From contig JANLFW010000014.1 in NCBI GenBank assembly GCA_024653305.1, positions 1 to 37,656 of the forward strand: a stretch of 37,656 nucleotides of DNA, read 5' to 3'. A program made the position numbers and the translations under genes. This document shows, piece by piece, positions 26,831 through 31,338 of this stretch. The DNA is from Candidatus Acetothermia bacterium. GTDB taxonomy: Bacteria > Bipolaricaulota > Bipolaricaulia > Bipolaricaulales > Bipolaricaulaceae. Numbering within the stretch: position 1 is the first letter of the stretch; the number at the start of each line of letters is the position of its first letter. The notes under the pieces are model-generated. The model ran no database searches and was not told the origin of the DNA. It saw only the letters and a list, made by a program, of their open reading frames with translations.

Positions 26831-26858
26831 TTGACATGCCTCCACCCCCTCATAGAAT
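26831..26858 (+). promoter_or_regulatory. Promoter of the tRNA-Leu/gatA unit
   Basis: A consensus TTGACA (26831-26836), a 16-base spacer and TAGAAT (26853-26858). It is the strongest promoter in the window, as expected for a tRNA. The transcript should start near 26865, only about 4 bases before the mature tRNA. Confidence 0.85.
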
Positions 26859-26868
26859 TGGGTCTGCG

Positions 26869-26956
26869 GCCGGGGTGGCGGAATTGGCAGACGCGCTGGA
26901 CTCAGGATCCAGTGGGGTATTCACCCCCCGTGTGGGTTCAAGTCCCACCCCCGGCA
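26869..26956 (+). tRNA. tRNA-Leu (anticodon CAG)
   Basis: An 88-base class II tRNA. The acceptor stem GCCGGGG pairs with CCCCGGC (26949-26955), with discriminator A at 26956. Anticodon loop CTCAGGA lies in the GGACTCAGGATCC hairpin and reads CUG codons. A long variable arm (GGGGTATTCACCCC) and the T arm GTGGG-TTCAAGT-CCCAC are clear. CCA is not encoded; the next bases are CAA. The gatA start codon follows 3 bases after the discriminator. Confidence 0.97.
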
Positions 26957-26959
26957 CAA

Positions 26960-28363
26960 GTGACGTTGACCGAGGCCCGGGCCCAGCTGAGCACCCATGA
27001 GCTGACACTTCAGGAGGTCATCGCCGCGCTGTGGGAGCGGATCGCGGCCTGCGAGCCCACGGTGCGTGCGTTTCTCTCCCTGGCCGATCCCAACCGCCTG
27101 ATCGCCGACGGGGAACCGTTGAGCGGGCTTCCCCTGAGCGGGCTCCCCATCGCCATCAAGGACAACATCTGTGCCCGGGACCTTCCCACCACCTGCGGGT
27201 CACGGATGCTTGAGCGGTTCCGGTCCCCGTACGAGGCCACCGCGGTGGCCCGCCTCAGGAGCGCCGGGGCCCAGGTGCAGGGGAAGACGAACCTGGACGA
27301 GTTCGCGATGGGCTCGTCCACCGAGCACTCCGCGTTCGGCCCCACCCGCAACCCGCACGACCCGTCCCGCGTTCCTGGCGGCTCCTCGGGCGGGTCGGCG
27401 GCGGCGGTGGCGGCCGGGGAGGCGCTGGCCGCGTTGGGGAGCGACACCGGGGGTTCGGTGCGCCAGCCCGCTGCCCTGTGCGGGGTGGTGGGGCTGCGGC
27501 CCACGTACGGCCTCGTGTCCCGGTACGGCCTGGTCGCGTTCGCCTCCAGCCTGGACACAATCGGCCCCATCGCCGGCTGCGTCCGCGACGCTGCCCTCGT
27601 CCTGTCGCTCGTCGCCGGACACGATCCGCTGGACTCGACATCCCTCCCCGTGCCGCCCCACGACTACACCGCGGACTTGCGCCCGGACCTCCGCGGGGTA
27701 CGGATCGGGGTGCCCAAGGAGTACGTCCCGCGGGAGCTGGGGCCAGAGGCACTCGCCCTGGTCGAACGGTGGCGGGAGGTCGCCGAGGAACTGGGGGCGA
27801 AGGTGATGGACATCACCCTCCCGACCACGGAGTACGCCTTGCCCACGTACTACCTGATCGCCTCGGCCGAGGCGGCGGCCAACCTCGCCCGGTACGATGG
27901 GGTGCGGTACACCCTGCGCGAGGAGGGGGACCGGGTGGGGGCGATGATCGCGCTCAGCCGCGCCGTCGGGTTCGGTCCCGAGGTGAAGCGCAGGATCGCC
28001 CTGGGCACGTTCGCCCTGTCCGCCGGCTACTACGACCAGTACTACGGCAAGGCCCAGCGGGCGCGGACGCTCATCGCCCGTGACTTTGCGGGCGCGTTCG
28101 CCGAGGTGGACCTGATCCTCGGGCCGACCTCGCCCACCCCGGCGTTCAGGTTCGGGGAGAAGGAAGATCCGATCGCGATGTACCTCGCGGACGTGTTCAC
28201 GTTGCCCTCGGCCCTGGCCGGCCTCCCGGCGATCTCGATCCCGGGGGGGACCGTTGGCGGCCTTCCGTTTGGGCTCCAGCTCATTGGGCCGAGGCTTTCC
28301 GAGGAGCGGGTGCTTTCCGCTGCCCTCGCGTTCGAGGAAGCGCTCAACGGTTTGGGTTCGTAG
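26960..28363 (+). CDS. gatA: Aspartyl/glutamyl-tRNA amidotransferase subunit A
   Basis: Amidase subunit of GatCAB, which converts Glu-tRNA(Gln) or Asp-tRNA(Asn) to the amide form; 467 residues. Seen: the Ser-cisSer-Lys set with Lys67 in IAIKDNI, cis-Ser142 in PGGSSGGS and nucleophile Ser166 in DTGGSVRQP, spaced as in known GatA. gatB and gatC are not nearby. The reading frame can only start at the GTG 26960 or TTG 26966; an ATG at 26998 is out of frame. There is no ribosome site, because the DNA just upstream is the tRNA. The message is therefore probably made by tRNA 3' processing and begins with about 3 leader bases. The last codons and the TAG lie in a 9-bp repeat array. Confidence 0.95.
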   Translation: MTLTEARAQLSTHELTLQEVIAALWERIAACEPTVRAFLSLADPNRLIADGEPLSGLPLSGLPIAIKDNICARDLPTTCGSRMLERFRSPYEATAVARLRSAGAQVQGKTNLDEFAMGSSTEHSAFGPTRNPHDPSRVPGGSSGGSAAAVAAGEALAALGSDTGGSVRQPAALCGVVGLRPTYGLVSRYGLVAFASSLDTIGPIAGCVRDAALVLSLVAGHDPLDSTSLPVPPHDYTADLRPDLRGVRIGVPKEYVPRELGPEALALVERWREVAEELGAKVMDITLPTTEYALPTYYLIASAEAAANLARYDGVRYTLREEGDRVGAMIALSRAVGFGPEVKRRIALGTFALSAGYYDQYYGKAQRARTLIARDFAGAFAEVDLILGPTSPTPAFRFGEKEDPIAMYLADVFTLPSALAGLPAISIPGGTVGGLPFGLQLIGPRLSEERVLSAALAFEEALNGLGS

Positions 28364-28478: not shown

Positions 28479-29483
28479 CTAATTCGCAATCCAGGCCAGC
28501 ACCCCCAGCAAGGCGAACGCTCCGGCCACGATCCACAGGCGGGCCACCACCTTCGGCTCCGGCCACTCCCGCCCGGGGAGGAGGTGGCGCCACGGGACGG
28601 ACCCGGCCTCGAGGTGGTGGTGAAGGGGGGACATCTTGAGGAGGCGCGTCCCGGTGAGCTTGTACGAGGCCACCTGGAGGATCACGGACAGCGTCTCCAC
28701 CACGAACAGACCCCCGAGGAGGGGGAGGAGGAACACCGCCCCCCCGGCGAAGGACACCCCGAACAGGAACCCACCGAGCCCCATGGACCCCACGTTCCCC
28801 AAAAACACGTGGGCCGGGTGGGCGTTGGCCCACAGGAACCCGGCCCCCGCCCCGATCCCGAGGAGGCATAAGCCCACGAGATCGGGCTTCCCCCCCACCA
28901 TGGGCAGGAGGCCGAGCAGGGCCAGGACCCACGCCCCGGTGGCGAGGCCGTCCAAGCCGTCGGTCAGGTTCACCGCGTTCGTGGTGGCCACGAACGCCAC
29001 GAGCACGAGGAGCAAGAGCGCCCACCAGGGAATGGCGGAGAGGGGCACCCGCACCGAGGAAAACGGGACGGCCAATTCGAGGCCACCGAGGAACGGGACC
29101 ATCGCGAACAAGGCCCCGCCCAGCGCGGCCTGGATGAGGAGCGTTTGGTGGGGGAAGAACCCGAGGGAAGCCCGGCGCCGCTGGGAGCGGAGGTCGTCGA
29201 GGAGGCCCATCCCGGCCCCGGCCCCGGTCGCGGCGAGGACGAACCCGGAGGCCCACGTCGGCCCACCGCCCGCACCCCACAGGACGCCGGCCCCGACCAG
29301 GATCGCCCCCAGCGGGACGATCCCCCCCATGGTCGGGGTGCCCGCCTTCTCGGCGTGTCGGGCCGGCCCCTCGGGGCGGACGTACTGGCCGACCCGGCCC
29401 CACCGGGCGAACGCGGAGCTCGCCCCCGCCACGGCCGGCACCATGACGAAGGCGAGGAGGAGGGCCAGGGTCAGCCCTTCCAC
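28479..29483 (-). CDS. mraY: Phospho-MurNAc-pentapeptide transferase
   Basis: Inner-membrane enzyme that puts phospho-MurNAc-pentapeptide onto undecaprenyl phosphate to make lipid I; about 334 residues with some ten hydrophobic helices. Seen: GTPTMGGI, the Asp pair in GLLDDLRSQ, NAVNLTDGLDGL, FLGNVGSMGLGG and the C-terminal LLKMSPLHHHLE. The block FLGNVGS normally reads MGDxGS, and its Asp is a catalytic metal ligand in studied enzymes; here it is Asn. The rest is well kept. GTG 29483 has AGGGGAG five bases upstream; GTG 29489 is possible. It overlaps the preceding gene by 13 bases. No other mur genes are in the window, so it is away from the usual dcw cluster. Confidence 0.9.
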   Translation of the reverse strand: MEGLTLALLLAFVMVPAVAGASSAFARWGRVGQYVRPEGPARHAEKAGTPTMGGIVPLGAILVGAGVLWGAGGGPTWASGFVLAATGAGAGMGLLDDLRSQRRRASLGFFPHQTLLIQAALGGALFAMVPFLGGLELAVPFSSVRVPLSAIPWWALLLLVLVAFVATTNAVNLTDGLDGLATGAWVLALLGLLPMVGGKPDLVGLCLLGIGAGAGFLWANAHPAHVFLGNVGSMGLGGFLFGVSFAGGAVFLLPLLGGLFVVETLSVILQVASYKLTGTRLLKMSPLHHHLEAGSVPWRHLLPGREWPEPKVVARLWIVAGAFALLGVLAWIAN

Positions 29484-30793
29484 CGCCACTCCCCTTCCGT
29501 GGAGAGAAGCGACCGCCGCACCGCGGCCGCCTCCCCACCGCCGAGCACGTGGGATACCGCCCGGAATAGATCATAGGCAGAAGTCAGGACCAACCGGTGG
29601 TCGCGGCAGCCGCGGCGGACCGCGTCCGTCCACTGCGGACCCCGCCGACGCGGGTCCAGACGCGGCTCGGCCAGGGCCAGGAGCATCCCCCGGAGCTCCC
29701 GGCCCCCGTCGGCCCGCAGCCGGTCGAGGTCGAGGAGGAGGGCACGGTGCTCCTCCGGCCCCACCGGGGAAAACAGCGCGAGGGCAACCCGCACCAAGAG
29801 GTCCCCATCCGGCGATGTGGCCGTAAACGATCCGGGACCCTCCACCGCAGGAGAACACGCGAACCCCAGGCGCGCGAGCGCGGCCCGGGCCGCGGCGGCC
29901 AACCCCTGGACCCCACGCGGGAACAGGAGGCCGCGCAGGGCATCGTAGCCCTCTCGGGCCGCGCGAAGCCCCTCCTCCCGCCGGGCGAGCCGCTCCCGCT
30001 CCCGGGCGAGCTCTCCCTCCTCCCGGCCCAGTTCCTCCTCCCCGGGCAAGCGGTACCCAGAAAGCCAATCCGGGGCCCCGGCCGCGAGCGGGGCCGAGGC
30101 CAGGGCCCCTAGCGCCGGGACCAGAAGCTCCCCGGCTTCGGCGGGATGGGCCCCGGGGAAGGCGGGCAGGAACACGATCCGGCCGGTCCCCACCGGCAGG
30201 TCCCACGCCGCCACGTCCCCGACCCGGGTGCGCGCCAACACCTGGCCGAACGCCTCCAGAGGGGCCCCCAAGCTCGCCGCGATCACCGCCTCGTAGCCGA
30301 GGGCTTGGAATGCCGAAAGGTACGGGTAGAGCGGGTGGGCCGCGTCCAGGTTGGTCACGTCCCGCCCCCGGCGGGGGAGGAACCGCAGCCCCTGGGAGAA
30401 GCCCAGATGGTGGGGCCCGGCGGTGAGGGAGACCCGCGGGAGGAACGCGTACCGATCGAGACGCCGTGGCGGGTTCCCGGCGATCTCCACCCCCTCCCCG
30501 GGAGGGCGCACCCGCACCCCCACGATCCCGCCCCCGCGGAAGAGGAGGTCCTCCAGCTCCTCCCGCCGGGCGGAACACAGGTTCTCCAGGGCCCGGGATA
30601 GCCCGAGGTCCCGCCCAGGGTACAGGCGCCAAATCCCATCGGGCTCCAGCGACGCCTGGTGAAGCCACAGCTCGGGCAACGGCTCGGGGTCGATCAGCAC
30701 CGCATCGAAGCTGGCCAGGGACTCGGCCGTGGGGAACTCGGCCCGCACCACCCCCGGCCCCTCGACCTCCCACCCCAGGGCCAGAACGCGCAT
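29471..30793 (-). CDS. Unknown protein with coiled coil and nuclease-like C-terminal region
   Basis: A 440-residue protein with no clear family. The first 260 residues look like an alpha/beta domain that resembles a ThuA or glutamine-amidotransferase-like fold by pattern (FDAVLIDPEP, FRGGGIVGVRV, VGTGRIVFLPAFPG), but no catalytic Cys-His pair is evident. A charged coiled coil follows (about residues 270-315, EEELGREEGELARERERL). The last 120 residues, from LARLGFACSPAV, recall restriction-endonuclease-like domains in which a DGDLLVRV strand takes the place of the usual D...ExK site, so it is probably inactive. The ATG at 30793 lies 8 bases after TACAAT, another leaderless-type start. It overlaps mraY and is divergent from ogt. 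Confidence 0.6.
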   Translation of the reverse strand: MRVLALGWEVEGPGVVRAEFPTAESLASFDAVLIDPEPLPELWLHQASLEPDGIWRLYPGRDLGLSRALENLCSARREELEDLLFRGGGIVGVRVRPPGEGVEIAGNPPRRLDRYAFLPRVSLTAGPHHLGFSQGLRFLPRRGRDVTNLDAAHPLYPYLSAFQALGYEAVIAASLGAPLEAFGQVLARTRVGDVAAWDLPVGTGRIVFLPAFPGAHPAEAGELLVPALGALASAPLAAGAPDWLSGYRLPGEEELGREEGELARERERLARREEGLRAAREGYDALRGLLFPRGVQGLAAAARAALARLGFACSPAVEGPGSFTATSPDGDLLVRVALALFSPVGPEEHRALLLDLDRLRADGGRELRGMLLALAEPRLDPRRRGPQWTDAVRRGCRDHRLVLTSAYDLFRAVSHVLGGGEAAAVRRSLLSTEGEWRWKG

Positions 30794-30801
30794 CGCGCGC
30801 C

Positions 30802-30807
30802 ATTGTA
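30802..30807 (-). promoter_or_regulatory. Leaderless -10 box of the coiled-coil protein gene
   Basis: TACAAT on the minus strand ends 8 bases before the ATG at 30793; no Shine-Dalgarno sequence lies between. A strong -35 box is not seen. Confidence 0.5.
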
Positions 30808-30876
30808 CGGGCGAACCCGAACCCGGCCAACGCCGCCTTGCCCGCCCTATCCCCGTCGATGTACGCTCCCCCCGCC

Positions 30877-31338
30877 ATGGGCTGGGGACGGGTCCGCACG
30901 GCATGGGGGGAGTTCTACGCCGCGGCCAACGCGCGCGGGATCGTGGCCCTGAGGTTCCCCGGGGAGTTTCCGCCGGAGCCTCCGTGCGTCCTCGCCCCGC
31001 TGGTGGACGCCCTCGCCCGCGAGCTCGCCGAGTACCTCGAGGGGGAACGCACCTCGTTCGACCTGCCGCTCGACCTCGTGGGGACACCGTTCCAGCGCAC
31101 AGTATGGATGGCCCTGCGGGAGGTCCCGTACGGGGCCACCGTCACCTACGGGGAGCTGGCGCGGCGGGTGGGGCGGCCTCGGGCGGCGCGGGCGGTGGGC
31201 CAAGCGGTGGGGGCGAACCCGATCCCGATCTTGATCCCCTGCCACCGCGTGGTCCCGCGGGCGGGGGGCGTGGGCGGGTTCGGCCCGGGGCCCCATTGGA
31301 AGGCCCGCCTCCTTGCGCTGGAAGGGGTGGTCCCGTGA
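30877..31338 (+). CDS. ogt: Methylated-DNA--protein-cysteine methyltransferase
   Basis: Suicide repair protein that takes the methyl group from O6-methylguanine onto its Cys; about 153 residues, with a short N-terminal domain. Seen: FQRTVWMALREVPYGATVTYGELA, with the DNA-binding helix-turn-helix residues (RAARAVGQAVGANP), and the active-site PCHRVV with Cys. The ATG at 30859 would add six residues (MYAPPA); neither start has a ribosome site, so the choice is open. It is divergent from the coiled-coil gene, and two short hairpins follow its stop. Confidence 0.92.
   Translation: MGWGRVRTAWGEFYAAANARGIVALRFPGEFPPEPPCVLAPLVDALARELAEYLEGERTSFDLPLDLVGTPFQRTVWMALREVPYGATVTYGELARRVGRPRAARAVGQAVGANPIPILIPCHRVVPRAGGVGGFGPGPHWKARLLALEGVVP

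Follow-up and report, generated by a model that had tools for sequence, protein, structure and literature searches.

A lineage of Bipolaricaulota MraY proteins with both residues of a catalytic salt bridge replaced

The window analyzed here, a stretch of 37,656 nucleotides from a Candidatus Acetothermia bacterium (assembly GCA_024653305.1, contig JANLFW010000014.1, positions 1 to 37,656), carries an mraY gene at 28479-29489 of the minus strand, which starts with GTG and encodes a protein of 336 amino acids. MraY is an essential antibiotic target that makes the first membrane-bound building block of the cell wall. The window protein scored 205.2 bits against TIGR00445, the mraY equivalog model (cut-off 192.05), and matched both Pfam Glycos_transf_4 (PF00953) and MraY signature 1 (MraY_sig1), while with the WecA model it stayed below threshold (19.4 bits versus a cut-off of 326). 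When its AlphaFold2 model (pLDDT 82.4, pTM 0.87) was searched with Foldseek, the best 24 matches were MraY chains, with DPAGT1 next and E values down to 3e-15. The NMLAGFNGLE block of DPAGT1-like paralogues is absent, and the protein has NLTDGLDG instead (28947-28970, minus strand; N190, D193, and D196 of Aquifex aeolicus). The Asp98-Asp99 pair (29193-29198, minus strand; A. aeolicus D117-D118) and the HHH motif (28614-28622, minus strand; A. aeolicus H324-H326) are likewise kept, so that the DD, NLTDGLDG, and HHHLE blocks are intact, as the first-pass annotation of this DNA had stated. By likeness to DPAGT1 Asn185, N190 may serve as the second Mg2+ ligand. The window ORF is an MraY orthologue.

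The gene is flanked by two ORFs. Upstream, an ORF at 29471-31087 of the minus strand overlaps the start of mraY, and its real start probably lies inside the frame; it had no Pfam match and no significant match among solved structures. This upstream gene adjoins mraY in 36 of 38 loci of family f1 and 26 of 28 of family f9. On the other side, a gatA-type amidase gene (26831-28363, plus strand; PF01425, 484 bits) converges on mraY. The listed gatA ORF begins before the real gene does and overlaps a tRNA-Leu. It neighbors mraY in several families, those with the Asn-type and the Asp-type protein described below alike.

The block that usually reads MGDxGS is LGNVGS in the window MraY (...HPAHVFLGNVGSMGLGG...). 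Asn232, encoded by AAC at 28794-28796 of the minus strand, takes the place of the Mg2+-ligand Asp, which by alignment is D265 in A. aeolicus and D267 in Escherichia coli; codon and alignment together confirm the Asn that had first drawn attention to the locus. A DNA pattern that spells the Asn block has a single match in the window, against a chance expectation of 0. Compared with the solved MraY structures of the PNPT superfamily (A. aeolicus 4j72, E. coli 8g01, and Hydrogenivirga 9zno), the window protein is alike in fold and equivalog score and has DD, NxxNLTDGLDG, HHH, and 35 of 40 near-invariant positions in common with them. It differs from them at the Mg2+-ligand Asp, which is Asn, and at the salt-bridge Lys, which is Thr, and its gene lies outside the dcw cluster, as in the rest of the phylum. 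Because the Asp265 criterion marks the characterized catalytic site and not descent, we file the protein as an MraY variant and do not give it standard membership, its activity being predicted from sequence.

We searched 100 Acetothermia/Bipolaricaulota genomes, mostly fragmented drafts of mixed completeness, and obtained a match in 91. The resulting alignment comprised 90 MraY rows after removal of two duplicates (L004 and L005), and 89 of these were readable at position 265, with Asp in 63 and Asn in 26. The Asn rows represent 26 genomes from nine genera. One comes from a genome of the same genus as the window (94% identical), and another 24 belong to other genera. Within the family of the window, 24 rows from most of its genera (g1, g3, g4, g5, g7, g10, and g11) carry Asn; two outlying lineages, G066, whose sister G065 has Asp, and G078, account for the others. 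A tree calculated with the site masked needs four changes, and its well-supported branches force at least three origins of Asn in the phylum, while a single origin within the window's family was not rejected (p-AU 0.185). The change itself is a matter of one base, as seen in G065 (GAT) and its sister G066 (AAT), the latter with Lys133 kept. A separate observation concerns G088 (family f9), in which two different full-length Asp-type MraY genes lie on separate contigs (L122 and L126), through either duplication or contamination.

A column-by-column comparison of Asn-type with Asp-type rows revealed a second substitution, absent from the first-pass annotation. Thr116 of the window protein (ACG, 29142-29144, minus strand) stands where A. 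aeolicus has Lys133, which pairs with D265 in the salt bridge, and this residue separates the two types in the phylum alignment. Lys133 was found in all 62 readable Asp rows of the phylum; the 25 readable Asn rows had Thr in 19, Met in three, and Leu, Asn, and Lys in one each. We extended the comparison to a joint table of 172 rows, made up of the phylum rows, 78 MraY loci of other phyla, which are not a random sample, having been picked with peptide patterns and by likeness to the window protein, and four Asn-type genes from outside the phylum. Three rows were unreadable at 133. Residue 133 was basic in all 140 readable Asp265 rows (118 Lys and 22 Arg) and non-basic in 24 of 29 Asn265 rows (19 Thr, three Met, one Leu, and one Asn), the five exceptions all being Lys. 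Loss of Lys133 was thus seen only on an Asn265 background. An independent-pairs test gave two pairs in agreement, none against, and one without difference, too few for significance.

Most Lys133 residues in the phylum are encoded by AAG, from which Thr, Met, and Asn are each one base away. Arg is also one base from AAG and is common at 133 in Asp-type rows, yet it is absent among the 24 non-basic rows. Of 40 positions conserved at 97% or more in Asp-type rows, 35 were invariant in Asn-type rows. Substitutions in every or almost every Asn-type row were confined to 133 and 265; the other exceptions were window residues 111, 265 (A. aeolicus E298), and 294 (one Asp). E298, invariant in Asp-type rows, has given way to Met or Thr in eight rows of genus g4 in family f1 (rows L084-L092), all of them Asn-type. 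The two residues that pair in the active-site salt bridge have thus been lost together, in a pattern that a lineage shares. Arg101 occurs in 18 of the 19 Thr-type rows, but no row with Met, Leu, or Asn at 133 has it; a new Arg as a general stand-in for the lost Lys was therefore rejected, and Arg101 and His114 are candidate replacements in the Thr clade only.

We scanned 389 genomes, of which 100 belong to the phylum and 289 do not, with the DNA pattern of the Asn block. It matched 29 of them, 25 from the phylum and four others (G131, G147, G164, and G313). In its Asn or Asp version, the pattern recovered 163 of 168 known loci, the one Asn case missed in the phylum being G015. All four genes from outside the phylum encode full-length MraY and have murD nearby; their proteins share the Asp-to-Asn change with the window MraY but retain Lys133. 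Order-level searches around these four genomes (covering one, one, one, and five genomes) found no further Asn case. Since Asn alone is rare elsewhere and Lys loss was seen only on an Asn background, the character states, which are not dated events, suggest that Asn came first and the loss of Lys second, and the Asn/Lys forms are likely evolutionary intermediates. The first-pass annotation had asked whether Asn is conserved in relatives, which the phylum rows affirm, and had named many active Asn-bearing orthologues as grounds for giving up its reading. That objection is partly borne out: Asn is common in the phylum and occurs in 4 of 289 genomes outside it, though no natural Asn-type MraY is known to us to be active. 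Within the open-access literature searched, no paper on a natural Asn at MraY position 265 was found.

We then considered the genome in which the gene lies. The assembly comprises 1.59 Mb in 73 contigs and is 95% complete, and its one PF00953 protein is the window MraY. A second MraY- or WecA-type protein, proposed earlier as a check, was thus not found, with the proviso that at this completeness one could be missing. In four other genomes, all at least 92% complete (G001, G008, G010, and G016), the Asn-type MraY is likewise the sole PF00953 member. Contig 8 of the window's own genome carries murD-ftsW-murG-murC and ftsA-ftsZ, and one transpeptidase was also found; MurG scored 248.5 bits, just below its model cut-off, and the evidence for murG in G001 and G008 is partial or weak. 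No mraY was recognized among the ten ORFs scanned on contig 8. The first-pass annotation had offered a paralogue with another sugar or lipid substrate as one reading, which fits poorly with a sole PF00953 member that passes the mraY equivalog model, keeps the other motifs, and occurs together with murC, murD, murG, ftsW, and a transpeptidase. It was correct that the gene lies outside a dcw cluster, but this position is no sign of a paralogue, because murD was found in the flanks of none of the 90 phylum mraY loci (about 1.5-5 kb fetched, shorter at contig ends).

Those second PF00953 proteins of Asn-type genomes that we read carry NMLAGFNGLE and are DPAGT1-like. Neither Lys nor Asp is lost in them, which makes the change specific to MraY. 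Across the PF00953 paralogues of the phylum (20 loci, 19 readable), Lys was present in 19 of 19 and Asp in 18 of 19, which argues against an organism-wide change of metal use. Several Bipolaricaulota genomes (L174, L175, L178, and other f1 loci) have a DPAGT1-like NMLAGFNGLE protein besides MraY. In addition, a WecA-like paralogue (L184, G058:C26:72700-79300, minus strand) reads FLGNEGA, with Asn at the metal position and an unchanged Lys; the MraY of that genome is Asp-type. A phage origin was set aside because neither of two DNA pattern matches in viral contigs lay in a motif-bearing ORF of at least 100 amino acids, and plasmid relatives were limited to matches below 60% identity.

A crystal-structure paper describes a salt bridge between D265 and K133 in A. 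aeolicus MraY (PMC9768162); D265 coordinates Mg2+, and tunicamycin contacts K133 (PMC6606608). K121, K133, and D265 surround, together with Mg2+, the predicted site of the C55-P phosphate (PMC4790310). In human DPAGT1 (GPT), Asn185 and Asp252 hold Mg2+; Asp252Asn is reported to be 5-fold more active, which was put down to a more electropositive metal, while Lys125 mutants retained less than 2.2% (PMC6218659). Judged by motif and position, Lys125, Asp252, and Asn185 would correspond to K133, D265, and N190. Asp252Asn is then a laboratory-made equal of the natural change in the window MraY; DPAGT1, however, requires Lys125, and the window MraY has lost the matching Lys as well. Loss of Lys133 should therefore hurt unless something replaces it. 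Also against activity, mutation of D267 is reported to abolish it in E. coli, and D231N kept only a little in Bacillus subtilis (PMC4902027). The role of the Asp is itself disputed between a nucleophile in a two-step reaction and a Mg2+ ligand in a one-step reaction (PMC4902027, PMC4790310). The altered metal site proposed by the first-pass annotation gains support, as the substituted position is that of the Mg2+ ligand and the Lys that pairs with it is altered too.

Both substitutions, their conservation, and their coupling are present, and the rest of the site and the pathway are intact. For five close pairs, dN/dS was below 1 by both methods (NG86, about 0.46, 0.36, 0.34, 0.27, and 0.20), although the values of 0.27-0.46 in four of the five indicate only moderate constraint. 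We consider it probable that the window protein, the organism's only detected MraY, is a working enzyme with a charge-neutralized Mg2+/lipid-phosphate site.

An error of sequencing, assembly, or alignment would be one alternative, given that most of the compared phylum genomes are fragmented drafts of mixed completeness; it is refuted by the recurrence of Asn in 26 genomes over nine genera, which also rules out the miscalled codon that the first-pass annotation had named as a possible refutation, and by a 133 region that aligns gap-free next to conserved Gly127, and we regard its probability as negligible. A decaying or catalytically dead MraY, with lipid I made by another enzyme, would account for changes at two residues reported as important for catalysis (PMC6218659, PMC4902027), and some Asn-type relatives do have a second, DPAGT1-like PF00953 protein. 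Yet those second proteins bear NMLAGFNGLE and not the MraY motif, the window's own genome has no other PF00953 member, the Asn rows retain almost all of the other near-invariant residues, and dN/dS is below 1, so that a dead enzyme appears very unlikely.

The protein might instead be a functional transferase with a changed substrate, either a modified UDP-MurNAc peptide or another polyprenyl phosphate, with the two substitutions as part of the shift. The location of Lys133 at the lipid-phosphate site (PMC4790310) would agree with this, as would the departure of the Asn clade at further positions, among them 215, 176, and 101. However, HHH, NLTDGLDG, and the other near-invariant residues are unaltered, Asn-type and Asp-type species of one family have a common gene neighborhood, and Asn alone also arose in the four dcw-linked mraY genes of other phyla; we consider such a shift improbable. 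Selection of the pair by nucleoside antibiotics would explain the cause of the change and not its mechanism, and is compatible with a working MraY. D265 is contacted by tunicamycin, mureidomycin, and sphaerimicin, and K133 by tunicamycin (PMC6606608, PMC9768162), whereas paralogues in the same phylum keep Lys; we see little likelihood of this origin.

If the window protein is a working MraY, it would move phospho-MurNAc-pentapeptide from UDP to undecaprenyl phosphate and yield lipid I. Asn174 (A. aeolicus N190) and Asn232 would bind Mg2+ through their side-chain oxygens, together with the UDP diphosphate and water. One negative ligand short, the metal would exert a stronger polarizing effect on the phosphate, in line with the argument made for DPAGT1 D252N. 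Lys, left unpaired without its Asp partner, could become dispensable or unwelcome and be replaced, which would fit a single G-to-A change from Asp to Asn followed by the loss of Lys. More tentatively, and as a proposal that may well fail, a natural MraY lineage would work without the Mg2+-binding Asp and the phosphate-guiding Lys, the pair being dispensable if removed together. The Asp would then be no nucleophile, and the metal site would be retuned, possibly with another metal or pH optimum, and would escape inhibitors that engage both residues.

If the enzyme is active, the Asp cannot be an obligatory covalent nucleophile, and a natural, conserved Asn/Thr MraY that makes lipid I would, if true, settle the dispute against that role. 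As a ready-made double mutant, it would bear on why the E. coli and B. subtilis single mutants fail while DPAGT1 D252N gains activity, and the lineage seems to be a natural active-site experiment on how this antibiotic target works. A different departure from the active-site consensus was found in the MraY of G064 (L166, G064:C58:1-7300), which reads GLAADL for the expected GLxDDL; D117 is thus replaced by Ala, with D265 and K133 kept, in one genome where it may be an error.
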